A stretch of DNA of 64,000 nt from Roseicyclus marinus (GTDB lineage Bacteria; Pseudomonadota; Alphaproteobacteria; Rhodobacterales; Rhodobacteraceae). Under the pieces are notes generated by a model. That model had not been told where the DNA came from and ran no database searches. It saw nothing but the letters and a program-made list of their open reading frames with translations. Positions within the stretch are counted from its first letter, which is position 1, and the number at the start of each line of letters is the position of its first letter. Below are positions 38,823-51,714 of the stretch, in pieces. The DNA is taken from contig NZ_JASJOF010000002.1 of the NCBI RefSeq assembly GCF_030163795.1, forward strand, positions 372,001-436,000, read 5' to 3'. The position numbers and the translations under genes are program-made.

Positions 38823-38914
38823 GACACGCTCCGGGCTACTGACGCCCGAAGAGTTTCACCGGATTATGGAACAAGATGGTTGGCCGGTTGGCAACTTTGC
38901 GGCCAACGGGCCGT

Positions 38915-39160
38915 TCAACTGCCCTTCGCCTCGAGCGCGGCGAGGCGGGCCTTGAGCGCCTCGTTCTCTTCGCGGGCCTTTTGGGCCATGGCGCGGACGG
39001 CTTCGAATTCGTCGCGGGTGACGAAATCGCGGTCGGCGAGCCAGCGGTCGATCAGCGACTTCATCGCCGTTTCGGCCTCTTCGCGCGCGCCCTGTGCCAC
39101 GCCCATGGCGTTGGTCATCAGCTGGCTGATGTCTTCCATGATCTTGTTGCGGGTCTGCAT
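38915..39160 (-). CDS. ubiK: Ubiquinone biosynthesis accessory factor UbiK
   Basis: 81 residues: [20 protein letters not shown], then a coiled coil ([15 protein letters not shown]). This is the UbiK/YqiC family that helps assemble the ubiquinone-synthesising complex and binds lipids. The start at 39160 gives the family N-terminus; the open frame upstream is antisense to lgt. Divergent from lgt with 123 bases between, a usual arrangement in Rhodobacteraceae. Confidence 0.9.
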
Positions 39161-39283
39161 GGGCCGGGCTCCTTTGTGGTAGACCCGGATATGGCCCCGC
39201 GGGGCCGTGGGATCAAGGTTGACTTCGCCGCAGGCCGCGACCACCCATGGCCGCGACCTGATCCCCGGAGCCCTTGCCGCCCC

Positions 39284-40195
39284 ATGCCCTTTGCCATTCC
39301 CTTTCCCGACCTGTCGCCCGAATTGTTCACGATCAACATCGGCGCATTCCAGTTCGCGCTGCGTTGGTATGCGCTGGCCTATATCGCGGGCTTGGTTGCG
39401 GGCTGGTGGCTGATCGTGCAGGCGGTCAAGCGCCCGGCGCTCTGGCCCGGCGATGCCGCGCCGATGCAGCCCGCACAGGTCGAGGGGCTGCTGACGGCGG
39501 TGGTTTTGGGCGTGATTCTGGGCGGGCGGATCGGCTTTGTCCTGTTCTACCAGCCGGGGTATTACCTGCAGAATCCGGGGCAGATCCTTCAGATCTGGCA
39601 GGGCGGCATGTCGTTTCACGGCGGGCTGATCGGGGTCGCGCTTGCGGGATATGTCTTTTGCCGCCTGAACAAGGTGCCGCCGCTGCAACTGGCCGATGCG
39701 ATGTCGATGGTGGTGGCGATCGGTCTGGGCCTTGGGCGGCTGGCGAATTTCATCAACGCGGAATTGTGGGGACGGCCCACGGATCTGCCTTGGGGCGTGA
39801 TCTTTCCCGGCGAGGCGGCGCAGGCCTGCGCGGGGCCTGTGGGGATCGTGATGACGGAGCTGGGCGAGATGTGCGCGCGCCATCCCTCGCAGCTCTACCA
39901 AGCCTTGCTCGAGGGGCTGGTGATGGGAGCCATCTTGTTGTGGCTGGCGTGGGCGCGCGGCTGGCTGAAGCGGCCCGGCGCGGTGACGGGGATGTTCTTT
40001 GCCCTTTACGGGATTGCGCGGTTCGCAGTGGAATTCGTGCGCCAGCCCGATGCGCAATTCGTGGGGCCGGACAACCCGGTGGGCTTTGCGCTGGCGCTGT
40101 CGCCCGATGTCGGCGTCACGATGGGGCAGATCCTGTCGGTGCCGATGATCGCGGCGGGCCTGTGGCTGGTCGCGCGGGCGCGGCGTGCGGCATGA
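39284..40195 (+). CDS. lgt: Phosphatidylglycerol-prolipoprotein diacylglyceryl transferase
   Basis: 303 residues with about seven membrane segments. Lgt attaches diacylglycerol to the lipobox cysteine of prolipoproteins. [27 protein letters not shown] (catalytic His region), [15 protein letters not shown] and [13 protein letters not shown] are diagnostic. The start [10 protein letters not shown] was chosen over longer in-frame options that have no conservation. It is coupled to the next gene through ATGA. Confidence 0.96.
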
Positions 40196-45940: not shown

Positions 45941-45977
45941 CGAAAAGCCCCTGCGCGGCCCCGCGCGGGGGCTTTTT
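45941..45977 (+). terminator. Intrinsic terminator of trxB
   Basis: A GC-rich stem of AAGCCCCTGCGCGG type pairing with CCGCGCGGGGGCTT, followed by a T-run to 45977, starting about 22 bases past the trxB stop. It isolates trxB from the downstream fusion gene. Confidence 0.85.
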
Positions 45978-45999: not shown

Positions 46000-46060
46000 G
46001 TTCAAACTTGAACAAACCCCTTTCGTGCGGCGCTTTCCCGGTGTATGTTCAATTCTGAAC
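46000..46060 (+). promoter_or_regulatory. Two similar palindromes upstream of the MarR-Sat-CysC gene
   Basis: GTTCAA-AC-TTGAAC (46000-46013) and GTTCA-ATTC-TGAAC (46047-46060), each followed by AAACC. Their centres are 47 bases apart. The second ends 15 bases before the start at 46076 and covers a TATGTT -10-like hexamer (46044-46049). Paired sites of this size next to a gene that encodes a MarR-type domain suggest autoregulation. Confidence 0.65.
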
Positions 46061-46075
46061 AAACCAAACGCACCC

Positions 46076-48139
46076 ATGATCACCTCCACACCCACCCCGC
46101 CCGAGGAAGACCTGCTGTTCCGGCTGCTGCGCCAGCTGGACATCGCCCCCGAGGCGTCGCAGCGGGCGACGGCGGAGGCGTTGGACATCAGCCTCGGGCG
46201 GCTCAACGCGCTGCTCAGGGCTGTGACGGACGCAGGGTTGGTGCGTCTGGCCGAGCGTGACAGCGCCGATAGGCGCGCACGCGTTGCCTATGCCCTGACG
46301 GCGCGGGGCGCGGCGGAGAAGGCGCGTCTGACCGACCGCTTTCTGGCCCGCAAGCTTGCCGAGTACGACGCGCTCCATGCCGAACTGACCGGCACGGGGA
46401 GCGGTTTTTCCTTTCTCAAGTCCAGGACCCTGATGATGCAGAACCACCTTGCCCCCGTTCCGGAACTCTATGTCTCGGCCGACAGCGCGCAGAAGCTGAA
46501 GCGGGAGGCCGCCGATCTTTTGTCCTGGGACCTGACGCCGCGCCAGACCTGCGACCTGGAACTGTTGATGAACGGCGGGTTCAACCCGCTCAAAGGGTTC
46601 CTGGGCCGGGAGGATTACGAGAGCGTGGTGGAAACCATGCGGCTGGCCGATGGCACGCTTTGGCCGATGCCGATCACGCTGGACGTATCGGAGGATTTCG
46701 CCGCCAAGGTCGAGCCGGGACAGGATATCGCGCTGCGCGATGCGGAGGGTGTGATCCTTGCGATCCTGTCGATCGGCGACAAGTACATCCCCAACAAGGC
46801 GCGCGAGGCGCAGATGGTGTTCGGCGCGGATGACGTGGCGCATCCGGCGGTCAATTACCTGCATCACGTGGCGGGCCCGGTGTATCTGGGTGGGGCCATC
46901 ACCGGCATCCAGCAGCCGGTGCATTACGATTTCCGCGCGCGGCGCGACACGCCCAACGAATTGCGCGCCTATTTCCGCAAGCTCGGCTGGCGCAAGATCG
47001 TGGCCTTCCAGACGCGCAACCCGTTGCACCGGGCGCACCAGGAACTGACCTTCCGCGCGGCCAAGGAAGCGCAGGCGAATCTGTTGATTCACCCGGTCGT
47101 GGGCATGACCAAGCCCGGCGACGTGGACCATTTCACCCGCGTGCGCTGCTACGAGGCGGTGCTGGACAAATACCCGGCGGCGACGACGCATATGAGCCTG
47201 CTCAATCTGGCGATGCGGATGGCGGGCCCGCGCGAGGCGGTCTGGCACGGGCTCATTCGCAAGAACCACGGCTGCACCCATTTCATCGTGGGCCGCGACC
47301 ATGCGGGCCCCGGCAAGAACAGCCAGGGCGTCGATTTCTACGGCCCCTATGACGCGCAGGAGCTGTTCAAGACGCATGAGGCCGAGATCGGCATCGAGAT
47401 GGTCGATTTCAAACACATGGTCTATGTGCAGGAAAAGGCGCAATATTATCCCGCGAACGAGGTGCCCGAGGGCGATACTGTCCTTGATATTTCCGGCACC
47501 GAATTGCGGCGGCGGTTGCGCGAGGGGCTGGAGATCCCGGAATGGTTCTCCTTCCCGGAAGTGGTCAAGGAATTGCGCCGCACCTCGCCGCCGCGCAGCC
47601 AGCAGGGGTTCACCGTGTTTTTCACGGGCCTGTCGGGGTCGGGCAAGTCGACCATCGCCAATGCGATCATGGTCAAGCTGATGGAACAGGGCGGACGGCC
47701 GGTAACGCTGCTCGACGGTGACGTGGTGCGCAAGCATCTGTCGAGCGAGCTGGGCTTTTCCAAGGAGCATCGGGACATCAACATCCGCCGGATCGGTTAC
47801 GTGGCAAGCGAGATCACCAAGAACGGCGGGATCGCGATCTGCGCGCCCATCGCGCCCTACACGGCCACGCGCCGCGCGGTGCGCGAGATGATCGAGGCTT
47901 TCGGGGCCTTCATCGAGGTGCATGTGGCGACCTCTCTCGAGGAATGCGAACGGCGCGACCGCAAGGGCCTGTATAAGCTGGCGCGTGAGGGCAAGATCAA
48001 GGAATTCACCGGGATTTCAGACCCCTACGAAGCGCCGACCACCGCCGAACTGGTGGTGGACACGGAGGGCATGGACGTGGATTACTGCGCCCAGCAGGTG
48101 TTGTTGAAGCTCGAGAGCATGGGGTTGATCGCGGCCTGA
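46076..48139 (+). CDS. Fused EPS-type MarR regulator, ATP sulfurylase and APS kinase
   Basis: 687 residues in one frame. Residues 12-105 match MarR-family EPS-associated regulators (SQRATAEALDISLGRLNALL, ARVAYALTARGAAEKARLTD, FLARKLAEYDAL). Residues 120-500 are ATP sulfurylase with QTRNPLHRAH (312-321) and GRDHAGPG (406-413). Residues 512-687 are APS kinase with an intact P-loop GLSGSGKST (518-526). ATP sulfurylase plus APS kinase of about 567 residues is the usual fused enzyme and makes PAPS. The MarR part is extra, without an intervening stop. ATGs at 46433 and 46436, preceded by AGGA at good spacing, could start a separate Sat-CysC product from the same mRNA. Confidence 0.85.
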   Translation: MITSTPTPPEEDLLFRLLRQLDIAPEASQRATAEALDISLGRLNALLRAVTDAGLVRLAERDSADRRARVAYALTARGAAEKARLTDRFLARKLAEYDALHAELTGTGSGFSFLKSRTLMMQNHLAPVPELYVSADSAQKLKREAADLLSWDLTPRQTCDLELLMNGGFNPLKGFLGREDYESVVETMRLADGTLWPMPITLDVSEDFAAKVEPGQDIALRDAEGVILAILSIGDKYIPNKAREAQMVFGADDVAHPAVNYLHHVAGPVYLGGAITGIQQPVHYDFRARRDTPNELRAYFRKLGWRKIVAFQTRNPLHRAHQELTFRAAKEAQANLLIHPVVGMTKPGDVDHFTRVRCYEAVLDKYPAATTHMSLLNLAMRMAGPREAVWHGLIRKNHGCTHFIVGRDHAGPGKNSQGVDFYGPYDAQELFKTHEAEIGIEMVDFKHMVYVQEKAQYYPANEVPEGDTVLDISGTELRRRLREGLEIPEWFSFPEVVKELRRTSPPRSQQGFTVFFTGLSGSGKSTIANAIMVKLMEQGGRPVTLLDGDVVRKHLSSELGFSKEHRDINIRRIGYVASEITKNGGIAICAPIAPYTATRRAVREMIEAFGAFIEVHVATSLEECERRDRKGLYKLAREGKIKEFTGISDPYEAPTTAELVVDTEGMDVDYCAQQVLLKLESMGLIAA
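46424..46438 (+). promoter_or_regulatory. Internal ribosome site and start before the ATP sulfurylase domain
   Basis: AGGA (46424-46427) stands 5 and 8 bases before in-frame ATG codons at 46433 and 46436. Starting at 46436 gives MQNHLAPVPELYV, the usual N-terminus of Sat-CysC enzymes. It could yield a second, MarR-free product. Confidence 0.45.
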
Positions 48140-48346: not shown

Positions 48347-49870
48347 CTATTGCGCCGGGGCGGGCGCGGGATCGGCGTTCGCCTCGGTCGTGTCGGGATC
48401 GGCGGCGGGGGTCGGGCCGTCGACCGCCGCCCCTTCGGTCGGCAGGCCGTTTTCCCATGTGCCGCGCAGGACCTCGCCGCTGGCGTAGCGCATCGTGCCC
48501 TCGCCCTCGCGGCGGCCGTCGACGAAGCGGCCCTCGTAGACATCGCCGTTGGAATAGGTGGCGATGCCGAAGCCGTTGATTTCGCCGTTCGCCCATTCGC
48601 CGACATAGGAGAAGGCATTGGGTTCGGGCATGGTCAGCCGCCCCTGCCCCGAGCGTACGCCCGCGACGAAGGTGCCGTCATAGACGGAGCCATCGGTATA
48701 GGTGGCGCGGCCCTGTCCGTGGCGCAGGCCGTTTTCCCACTGACCCTCGTAGCGGTAGCCGTCGGGATGGGTCATGACGCCCTGCCCGTGCTGGCGGGCG
48801 TTGAGGAATTGGCCGACATAGGTGAGCCCGTTGGCATAGGTGGCGGTGCCCTGCCCCTGGATCACGCCCTCGACCCAATCGCCCGTATAGGAGGCGCCAT
48901 CGGGATAGGTGATCGTGCCCGTGCCATGGGCGAGATCATTGGCGAAACCGCCCTCGTAAACCGAGCCGTCGGGATAGGTGACGCGGCCTTGGCCGGAGAT
49001 CTGCCCCTCGGCCCAGTCGCCGGTATAGACATAGCCGTCGGTCGCGGTGAAGGTGCCTGTCCCGTGGCGCTGGTCGTCGCGGAATTCCCCCTCGTAGACA
49101 TCACCGTTGGCGTAGCGGACCGTGCCGCTGCCCTGGCGCTGGCCGTTCGCGAGCGCGCCTTCGTAGACATCGCCATTGGGCTGGGTGAGGGTGCCGGTGC
49201 CGTTGATCTGGCCGTCGGCCCATTCCCCCTCGTAGGTGACGCCATCGGGCATGACGAGGCGCCCGGTGCCCGCACGCTGACCCGCGACGAAGCCGCCCTC
49301 ATAGGTCGCGCCATCGGGGTAGGTGATCGTCCCTTGGCCCTGTTTGACGCCCTCCTCCCACTCTCCCTCGTAGCGGTAGCCGCCGGGGCCGCTCATGACG
49401 CCCTGACCATGGTGCAGCGCGTTGCGGAATTCGCCGGTGTAGCTGACGCCGTTGGAATAGCTGGCCATGCCGCTGCCGTGGATGCGCCCCTCGGCCCAGT
49501 CGCCTTCGTAGGTGGAGCCGTCCGCGAAGGTGATGCGGCCCTGACCCTCGGGGCGGCCCGCGACAAAGGCGCCCTCGTAGATCGAGCCATCGGGGAAGGT
49601 GGCCCGGCCTTGGCCGCGAATCTCGCCGTCGACCCATTCGCCGATGTATTCATAGCCATTGGGCAGGCGGTACGTGCCCTGCCCGTGCTGCACGCCGTTG
49701 CGGAACTGCCCCTCGTAGATCCCGCCATTGTCGTATTGCTGGATGTCGGTGACGATCGGCGCGGTTTCGGCGGCGGCATCGGCGGCGGGGGCTGCAGCCT
49801 CCTGCGCGGGAACGGCGGTGGAGGAAAGAAGCACGGCGAGAAGCGCCATGGCGTGGGTCTTGCGGAACAC
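48347..49870 (-). CDS. Exported MORN-repeat protein with 18-19 repeats
   Basis: 507 residues. A GTG start at 49870 with GGGAGGCG upstream begins a signal peptide ending near STAVPAQ. From residue 52, eighteen consecutive 23-residue MORN units of the form Y-E-G-x-F/W-x-x-G-x-x-x-G-x-G run to residue 467, with a partial nineteenth (LRGTWENG). Unit 16 carries a two-residue insert. Units alternate Phe and Trp at position 5. Units 1-9 resemble 10-18 one for one, an internal duplication. MORN arrays form long beta-hairpin rods. Role unknown; the signal implies an envelope location. Confidence 0.88.
   Translation of the reverse strand: MFRKTHAMALLAVLLSSTAVPAQEAAAPAADAAAETAPIVTDIQQYDNGGIYEGQFRNGVQHGQGTYRLPNGYEYIGEWVDGEIRGQGRATFPDGSIYEGAFVAGRPEGQGRITFADGSTYEGDWAEGRIHGSGMASYSNGVSYTGEFRNALHHGQGVMSGPGGYRYEGEWEEGVKQGQGTITYPDGATYEGGFVAGQRAGTGRLVMPDGVTYEGEWADGQINGTGTLTQPNGDVYEGALANGQRQGSGTVRYANGDVYEGEFRDDQRHGTGTFTATDGYVYTGDWAEGQISGQGRVTYPDGSVYEGGFANDLAHGTGTITYPDGASYTGDWVEGVIQGQGTATYANGLTYVGQFLNARQHGQGVMTHPDGYRYEGQWENGLRHGQGRATYTDGSVYDGTFVAGVRSGQGRLTMPEPNAFSYVGEWANGEINGFGIATYSNGDVYEGRFVDGRREGEGTMRYASGEVLRGTWENGLPTEGAAVDGPTPAADPDTTEANADPAPAPAQ
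48470..49717 (-). repeat. Coding super-repeat: two nine-unit MORN blocks
   Basis: Block 1 spans 49097-49717 (units 1-9) and block 2 spans 48470-49096 (units 10-18). Equivalent units pair best, for example unit 5 YTGEFRNALHHGQGVMSG with unit 14 YVGQFLNARQHGQGVMTH. Confidence 0.65.
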
Positions 49871-50055
49871 TGGTGTCGCCTCCCTGTGGCCCGTGGCCTG
49901 TCGGTCTGTCTGGTCGGTCTTCAGGCTAGGGGGTCGGGGGCGGCGGCGCAACGGCTTTGCGGGATGCGCAAGGCGGGACGGCGGGGGCCTGCCCCTTGGC
50001 CTCGGGGCGCTTTCTGTTACATCTGCCGCGACGATGAGCGCGAAAGGGGCCGCCC

Positions 50056-51714
50056 ATGGCCGAGAGGTTCCGCCTGAGCCTTGCACAATTGAACCCGACG
50101 GTGGGCGACCTGCGCGGCAATGCCGCGCTGGCCCGACGCGCCTGGGAAGAGGCGCGGGCGGCGGGGGCCGACATGGTGGCCTTTCCCGAGATGTTCCTGA
50201 CGGGCTACCAATTGCAGGATCTGGTGCGCAAACCGGCCTTTTCGGCGGATGTCGGCCGCGTGCTGGCCGATCTGGCCAAGGATTGCGCGGACGGGCCCGC
50301 CATCGGCATCGGCGGGCCGCTGCCCGGCGGCGACAAGCCCTTCAACGCCTATTTCGTCTTGCAGGGCGGCAAGATCACGGCGCAGGTGCTCAAGCACCAT
50401 CTGCCCAACTACAAGGTCTTTGACGAGAAGCGCTATTACCATGCCGGCGACCCCTCGGGGCCGGTCCGGGTGGGGCCCCTGCGGATCGGTATCCCGATCT
50501 GCGAGGATGCGTGGTTCGAGGATGTGACCGAAACGCTGGCCGAGACAGGGGCCGAGATCCTGCTTGTGCCCAACGGTTCGCCCTATCACCGGGGCAAGAT
50601 GGACACGCGACAGGCGATCATGGTGAGCCGCGTGATCGAGACCGGGTTGCCGTTGGCCTATGTGAACCTCGTGGGCGGGCAGGATGACCAAGTGTTCGAC
50701 GGGGCGAGTTTCGTTCTGAACCCGCATGGCGTTCTTGCCTGCCAGATGCCCGCCTTTGACAGCGTGTTGACCCATGTCGATTTCGAGCACGGGGCCGAGG
50801 GATGGCAGGCCGTGGCGGCCGAGAAATCCGCCCTGCCGGATCCGTGGGAGGCCGATTACCGCGTCATGGTGACGGGATTGCGCGATTACTGCGCCAAGAC
50901 CGGGTTTTCCCGCGTGCTTCTGGGCCTGTCGGGGGGCGTGGATTCGGCGTTGGTCGCGGCGATCGCGGTCGATGCGCTGGGACCGGAGAACGTGCGCTGC
51001 GTGATGCTGCCCTCGCGGTTCACGTCGCAAGCCTCGCTCGACGATGCGGGCGATGTGGCGCGGCGGCTGGGTGTGCAACTCGACACGGTGCCCATCGGGG
51101 CGGCGCACGAGGCGGTGCTGGGCACGCTTGGCCCCCTGTTCGAGGGGCGCGCGCCCGACCTGACCGAGGAAAACATCCAGTCGCGCCTGCGCGGCGTGAT
51201 GCTGATGGCGCTTTCGAACAAGTTCGGCGAGATGCTGTTGACCACCGGCAACAAATCCGAAGTGGCCGTGGGCTATGCCACGATCTATGGCGACATGGCG
51301 GGCGGCTACAATCCGATCAAGGATCTCTACAAGACCCGCGTCTTCGAGACGTGCCGGTGGCGCAACGCCCATCATGCGGCGTGGATGCAGGGACCGGCGG
51401 GCGAGATCATCCCGCCCGTCGTGATCGACAAGCCGCCGACGGCGGAATTGCGCGACAACCAGAAGGACGAGGACAGCCTGCCGCCCTATCCGGTTCTGGA
51501 CGAGATCCTGGAGATGCTGATCGACAAGGAAGCGTCGGTCGCGGATCTTGTGGCGATGGGCCATGACCGAGACGTGGTGAAGAAGGTCGAAAGCCTGATC
51601 TACATCAGTGAATACAAACGCTTCCAGTCCGCCCCCGGCGCGAGGTTGACGGAACGGGCGTTCTGGCTGGATCGGCGCTATCCGATCGTGAACCTGTGGC
51701 GCGACGACGGCTAA
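50056..51714 (+). CDS. nadE: Glutamine-dependent NAD+ synthetase
   Basis: 552 residues. The N-terminal amidase (residues 1-255) is a nitrilase-type domain with Glu in AFPEMFLTGYQL, Lys in KHHLPNYKVFDE and Cys in IPICEDAWFED. The C-terminal ammonia-dependent synthetase has the PP-loop GLSGGVDSALVAA and the late motif NKSEVAVGYATIYGDMAGG. It converts nicotinic acid adenine dinucleotide to NAD+ with glutamine-derived ammonia. Divergent from the MORN gene with 185 bases between. Confidence 0.96.
   Translation: MAERFRLSLAQLNPTVGDLRGNAALARRAWEEARAAGADMVAFPEMFLTGYQLQDLVRKPAFSADVGRVLADLAKDCADGPAIGIGGPLPGGDKPFNAYFVLQGGKITAQVLKHHLPNYKVFDEKRYYHAGDPSGPVRVGPLRIGIPICEDAWFEDVTETLAETGAEILLVPNGSPYHRGKMDTRQAIMVSRVIETGLPLAYVNLVGGQDDQVFDGASFVLNPHGVLACQMPAFDSVLTHVDFEHGAEGWQAVAAEKSALPDPWEADYRVMVTGLRDYCAKTGFSRVLLGLSGGVDSALVAAIAVDALGPENVRCVMLPSRFTSQASLDDAGDVARRLGVQLDTVPIGAAHEAVLGTLGPLFEGRAPDLTEENIQSRLRGVMLMALSNKFGEMLLTTGNKSEVAVGYATIYGDMAGGYNPIKDLYKTRVFETCRWRNAHHAAWMQGPAGEIIPPVVIDKPPTAELRDNQKDEDSLPPYPVLDEILEMLIDKEASVADLVAMGHDRDVVKKVESLIYISEYKRFQSAPGARLTERAFWLDRRYPIVNLWRDDG

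Follow-up and report, generated by a model that had tools for sequence, protein, structure and literature searches.

A MarR-type domain fused to ATP sulfurylase-APS kinase in Rhodobacteraceae: a conserved gene with its own palindrome, a conserved internal start and a probable autoregulatory role

Few enzymes, to our knowledge, carry their own repressor. A reading frame of Roseicyclus marinus, lying in the 64,000-nucleotide stretch of DNA analysed here (hereafter, the window), joins a MarR-type DNA-binding domain to the bifunctional sulfate-activating enzyme ATP sulfurylase-APS kinase (Sat-CysC). The locus raises the question of what such a domain does on this enzyme, and whether the gene yields one product or two. 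In window coordinates, the fused gene is organised as follows:

46076 to 48139, forward strand: MarR_EPS-Sat-CysC fusion gene; 687 amino acids, with one terminal stop on translation
46103 to 46387, forward strand: MarR_EPS winged-helix domain, residues 10–104 (TIGR04176)
46394 to 46435, forward strand: linker of 14 residues, 107–120
46427 to 48133, forward strand: match to the Sat-CysC enzyme, residues 118–686 (NF004040)

Translation and NCBIfam matches bear out the original prediction of one in-frame MarR_EPS and Sat-CysC fusion of 687 residues with its enzyme motifs kept. The TIGR04176 alignment at residues 10–104 spans profile positions 2–96 of 105; its score was 85.5 bits, under the cut-off of 88, when the whole protein was searched against NCBIfam, and 89.8 bits, above that cut-off, in a search of the genome, which gave no further TIGR04176 match at E 0.001. 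The enzyme part matches NF004040 at 1054.5 bits (cut-off 669) over profile positions 3–571 of 572, and aligns with the structure 1i2d over residues 138–685 and with 2gks over residues 149–684. The sequences QTRNPLHRAH, GRDHAG and G[FLY]SGSGKS, which we take to be the catalytic motifs of both enzymes, occur in 103 of 103 fused proteins. The Sat-CysC part, which had been described as complete and apparently active, is complete by its profile match and predicted to be active from its motifs.

The frame is open upstream as far as a GTG at 46025. This codon was considered as a start and rejected, as many relatives have stops there. In many relatives a stop lies just 5′ of the aligned start, for example at −21 in locus L003 and −12 in L006, and ATG 46076 is therefore the likely start. 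The near neighbours examined are trxB, a MORN-repeat gene and NAD synthase, and no exopolysaccharide gene was found among these three. One further feature lies between trxB and the fusion:

45957 to 45973, forward strand: terminator-like hairpin; one site, compared with 0.8 in shuffled sequences, and weak evidence taken alone

Two neighbouring frames are recorded as separate observations. Directly after the fusion, on the opposite strand, a frame of 579 residues carries 12 matched MORN repeats (window 48347–50086, reverse strand). The lgt frame (window 38876–40195, forward strand) encodes 439 residues, yet the Lgt profile starts only at residue 152, so that either the true start lies further in or the protein has an extended N terminus.

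For comparison, 103 fused and 51 unfused loci were fetched, the unfused loci being the best-scoring or long-framed ones and not a random draw. Sixty of the 61 fused genomes from the family search were fetched, G221 being left out; a fused fragment with a palindrome in G044 (L188) lies outside the counts, as do L274 and L275. A second set comprised the best 80 of 308 loci and includes Shimia, Leisingera and Aliiroseovarius; it is not an independent replicate, because its species probably overlap with those of the other genomes. Over the first 360 nt, none of the 103 fused loci has a stop in frame, compared with 103 and 85 in the other two frames.

A second start, giving an enzyme free of the MarR domain, had been suggested from an AGGA word and two ATG codons, at 46433 and 46436, which were confirmed in the sequence. 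The elements concerned are:

46424 to 46427, forward strand: internal Shine–Dalgarno word AGGA, inside linker codons (Arg117 is AGG)
46436 to 48139, forward strand: candidate second product, MarR-free Sat-CysC of 567 amino acids, from ATG 46436

Conservation across relatives sustains this suggestion. The arrangement AGGA-N8-start is present in 102 of the 103 fused loci, the exception (L091) having AGGT, and in 79 of the 80 loci of the second set, where the exception (L247) has CGGA; a scan of 41,471 in-frame codon positions in the enzyme parts of the second-set loci gave no case. At the position aligned to residue 121, 97 fused loci have ATG, four GTG, one TTG and one GCC (L041). This last case is an alignment shift, since the ATG of L041 lies equally far from its AGG. 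Arg117 is encoded by the rare codon AGG at 102 of 102 aligned Arg codons. Elsewhere, AGA and AGG together account for 0–6% at seven other conserved N-terminal Arg positions and nowhere exceed 10% at conserved Arg positions of the enzyme part, in which AGG makes up 11 of 4157 Arg codons. That selection should keep both a rare AGG and, at the distance suited to initiation, a start codon would be difficult to account for if ribosomes did not initiate there.

Shine–Dalgarno-like words inside reading frames may also slow ribosomes. The internal AGGA could accordingly be a pausing site that allows the MarR domain to fold before the enzyme is synthesised, the 687-residue protein being the sole product. 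The linker length would suit such a role, as 14 residues separate Gly106 from residue 121 in 103 of 103 fused loci. Pausing, however, needs no start codon, and the one here is conserved at the distance that initiation requires, replaced solely by GTG or TTG once the shift in L041 is allowed for; furthermore, the enzyme of unfused relatives begins at about the same place, near residue 121 of the fusion. We consider pausing an unlikely account of the site, if the best placed of the alternatives. Initiation within the linker is the preferred reading, and the fusion gene should probably be annotated with two starts. As for their relative use, the upstream start is preceded by a four-base Shine–Dalgarno word in only 8 of the 103 fused loci, which suggests that the bare enzyme would be the larger product. 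The missing word is no proof of weak initiation, because by the same test 37 of the 51 unfused sat-cysC starts lack one too.

Upstream of the fusion lie two copies of a palindrome:

46000 to 46013: upstream copy, GTTCAAACTTGAAC, an exact palindrome and predicted operator
46047 to 46060: promoter-proximal copy, GTTCAATTCTGAAC, ending 15 bases 5′ of the ATG; predicted operator

Within the 300 nt 5′ of the gene, 102 of 103 fused loci and 0 of 51 unfused loci have an exact GTTC-N6-GAAC. The sole miss, L077, is truncated by a contig end and has 55 bases before its aligned start, with the right half of the palindrome visible at the edge. All 80 loci of the second set (the best 80 of 308) carry the palindrome. 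Elsewhere in the same loci GTTC-N6-GAAC occurs at a background of 10 sites in 534,222 bases, or 0.0064 per 340 nt. In a paired test on the enzyme-part phylogeny, presence of the operator went with presence of the fusion in nine of nine independent pairs drawn from supported branches (p 0.0039); L077 was left out of this test for its 55 upstream bases. The consensus is GTTCA-N4-TGAAC, and its end lies 15–20 nt 5′ of the start codon in 76 of 102 loci. At least two exact palindromes are present in 33 of 103 fused loci, and in 12 of the 13 genus genomes two copies lie 47–49 bp apart. A conserved CTTt box precedes the palindrome by 26–29 nt, and a TAT/ATg box also lies 5′ of it; a simple scan found no sigma-70-type promoter either upstream of the fusion or within the MarR part. 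From the conserved boxes we infer where the operator lies relative to the transcription start. It is the linkage of palindrome and fusion that points to control of the gene by its own product.

The palindrome also accompanies free-standing members of the domain family. In Rhodobacteraceae it lies upstream of 4 of 10 free-standing MarR_EPS genes (L182, L183, L184 and L186), 77–106 nt 5′ of the aligned domain start, and is absent from the other six; outside the family it precedes 0 of 28 relatives, though some of these score equally high. Within Rhodobacteraceae, the palindrome would thus be the site that the MarR_EPS domain recognises, and the little-studied MarR_EPS family gains a probable binding motif, GTTCA-N4-TGAAC, for at least part of its members.

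The free-standing cases bring in another possibility, namely that the chief targets of the fused domain are other genes, such as polysaccharide operons, with autoregulation secondary. Among the palindrome-bearing free genes, L186 precedes nucleotide-sugar genes (an epimerase/dehydratase and a UDP-glucose dehydrogenase-type frame) and L182 an ABC-2 and ABC pair, an exporter. In the 3.6 Mb genome of the fusion, GTTCANNNNTGAAC occurs at four sites, two of them at the fusion promoter; of the other two, read by eye, one falls within an ABC-F-like frame and one where a GGDEF-like gene begins, and both argue against a main role at other genes here. Twelve further genomes were examined. In G005, G047 and G366 exact GTTCANNNNTGAAC sites are confined to the fusion promoter, which also speaks against other targets, while sites beyond the promoter number four each in G004, G023 and G445, five in G352 and 13 in G385. 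These extra sites in five of the 13 genomes may reflect either chance or further targets. The loose form GTTC-N6-GAAC is uninformative by itself, because its 64 genome sites are outnumbered by the 94 of a reversed control. A main role at other genes accordingly seems improbable, and the gene's own promoter is the preferred target. As a separate observation, G385 has the most exact GTTCANNNNTGAAC sites of the 12 genomes (14 in total) and perhaps a wider regulon.

The MarR part is maintained as a protein domain. With a median dN/dS of 0.136 across 78 pairs within the genus, compared with 0.064 in Sat and 0.067 in CysC, the MarR part is under purifying selection. A vestigial domain was considered and is ruled out by dN/dS together with the operator–fusion linkage. 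A model of the N-terminal part (mean pLDDT 82.6) shows a winged helix-turn-helix, with helices at residues 8–23, 29–36 and 40–52, strands at 56–60 and 70–74, and a long helix at 76–105. Its best Foldseek matches are MarR regulators, among them HcaR, PcaV, ZitR and MepR, and 22 MarR matches were obtained at E ≤0.001, with TM-scores of about 0.46–0.58. A model of the whole protein was of low quality, at a mean pLDDT of 56.8; it is uninformative on the oligomer and was unused for the enzyme part.

The linker has a median dN/dS of 0.883 (76 of the 78 genus pairs usable), its sequence being nearly free. Such freedom would suit proteolysis in the linker, releasing the MarR domain as an ordinary repressor and leaving the fusion as a means of co-expression only. 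A stop codon would suffice for that end, yet none of the 103 genes has one in its first 360 nt, and the constant linker length likewise counts against cleavage. This account is quite improbable, and the MarR domain is more readily understood as acting while tethered to the enzyme.

The fusion is genuine and of long standing. Among 101 relatives searched, all 13 genomes of the genus carry it (in one of them the contig stops at residue 672), and so do genomes of other genera. The closest named relative, Roseicyclus mahoneyensis, is 88% identical in the first 121 residues and 95% identical in the protein as a whole. Alignment with Rhodobacteraceae proteins, by which the original prediction was to be judged, placed the MarR extension in at least 93 of 395 genomes, counting matches that run from residue 10 or earlier through to the end; this count is a lower bound, and the number of unfused genes is inexact. 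In the second set, 79 of 80 loci are fused and the 80th is ended by its contig end. The contrary outcome, relatives with two genes and a stop at the junction, did not appear: relatives carry the fusion. Given its presence throughout the genus, in the family genomes and in 79 of 80 second-set loci, a sequencing error, or a chance read-through of two genes, can be dismissed. Outside Rhodobacteraceae no fusion was found in a class-wide draw of 289 genomes, in which the sole two fusion-length frames (G000 and G243) both belong to Rhodobacteraceae and other matches reach at most 343 residues. Separately, one fragmented genome that has the fusion also holds a second sat-cysC (L190, G003:C338), 92% identical from residue 124 on, which may be contamination.

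Many relatives lack the domain and have an unfused Sat-CysC. On a tree of the enzyme part (short search, LG+G4; 103 fused and 50 unfused loci and one outgroup, with L121 left out because its trimmed protein was too short), fused and unfused forms are interleaved, and the fused/unfused label changes 17–18 times, at least 9–10 of them on supported branches. Since linker length, operator and internal site are constant, one fusion followed by repeated joint loss of the MarR part and operator, or by transfer, is favoured. The putative ancestral state, a separate MarR gene beside an unfused sat-cysC, was not found by tblastn in the flanks of the 51 unfused loci (about 1000–1500 bases upstream and 300–1500 downstream).

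It is proposed that the fusion is an autoregulating enzyme, whose MarR part represses its own promoter through the palindrome and whose 687-residue form occurs beside a 567-residue bare enzyme; we regard this as probable. The MarR_EPS domain of the full-length protein would bind, as a dimer, the GTTCA-N4-TGAAC palindrome or palindromes at its own promoter, and the bound domain would repress that promoter. The ribosome site within the linker would yield Sat-CysC without the MarR domain, so that a single mRNA would give two proteins: the bare enzyme, probably the more abundant of the two, and a copy tethered to the repressor. Through the enzyme part of this tethered copy, repression may be tuned by substrate or product (APS, PAPS, ATP) or by the mixing of bare and tethered subunits.

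A fuller version can be put forward tentatively, at rather less than even odds. It envisages a homeostat in which translation would set the ratio of bare to tethered subunits, a mixed oligomer would form, and its occupancy by APS or PAPS would gate DNA binding at a single promoter, the whole being conserved in the family and often lost together with the operator. A plain autorepressor that keeps enzyme levels steady would be expected to leave the same traces as a sensor of sulfate activation. The CysH of this genome (L306, G000:C20, around 196888–197400) has CC and CxxC cysteines, presumably of the type of iron–sulfur APS reductases, so the routes to cysteine and to PAPS probably diverge at APS. 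Such a branch point makes sensing of APS or PAPS plausible without being evidence that it occurs. By eye, the cysH gene adjoins a sulfite/nitrite reductase-like frame.

About a hundred species jointly conserve operator, fusion and second start, which opens a rare type of control to study in culturable bacteria, for example Shimia, Leisingera and Aliiroseovarius. Titles and opening parts of abstracts on MarR together with ATP sulfurylase or sulfate adenylyltransferase yielded no such fusion. The TIGR04176 regulators share their domain family with the fusion, and 4 of the 10 free-standing Rhodobacteraceae members share its palindrome; they are free-standing in the cases examined, whereas the domain is fused here and lies between trxB and the MORN-repeat gene. 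Bifunctional Sat-CysC proteins (NF004040; solved relatives include 2gks and 3cr8) have the same domain order and motifs as the fusion, and its unfused relatives start near residue 121 and lack the palindrome.

PutA, the trigger enzyme of proline utilization in Escherichia coli, has a DNA-binding fold that is not that of the MarR_EPS fusion, and we know of no conserved internal start that gives a PutA form without its DNA-binding domain. PutA also differs in being catabolic and in its membrane switching. PutA resembles the MarR_EPS-Sat-CysC protein in combining a DNA-binding domain and an active enzyme in one chain, and binds only the putA–putP spacer (PMC8249747). BzdR likewise couples a regulator to an enzyme fold by way of a linker: its DNA-binding domain sits on a shikimate-kinase-like domain that has lost enzyme activity and only binds an effector (PMC3602430). 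The two differ in that activity is lost in BzdR, whereas the active-site motifs are kept in all 103 fusions. Compared with PutA and BzdR, the new feature of the MarR_EPS-Sat-CysC fusion is its conserved second start.
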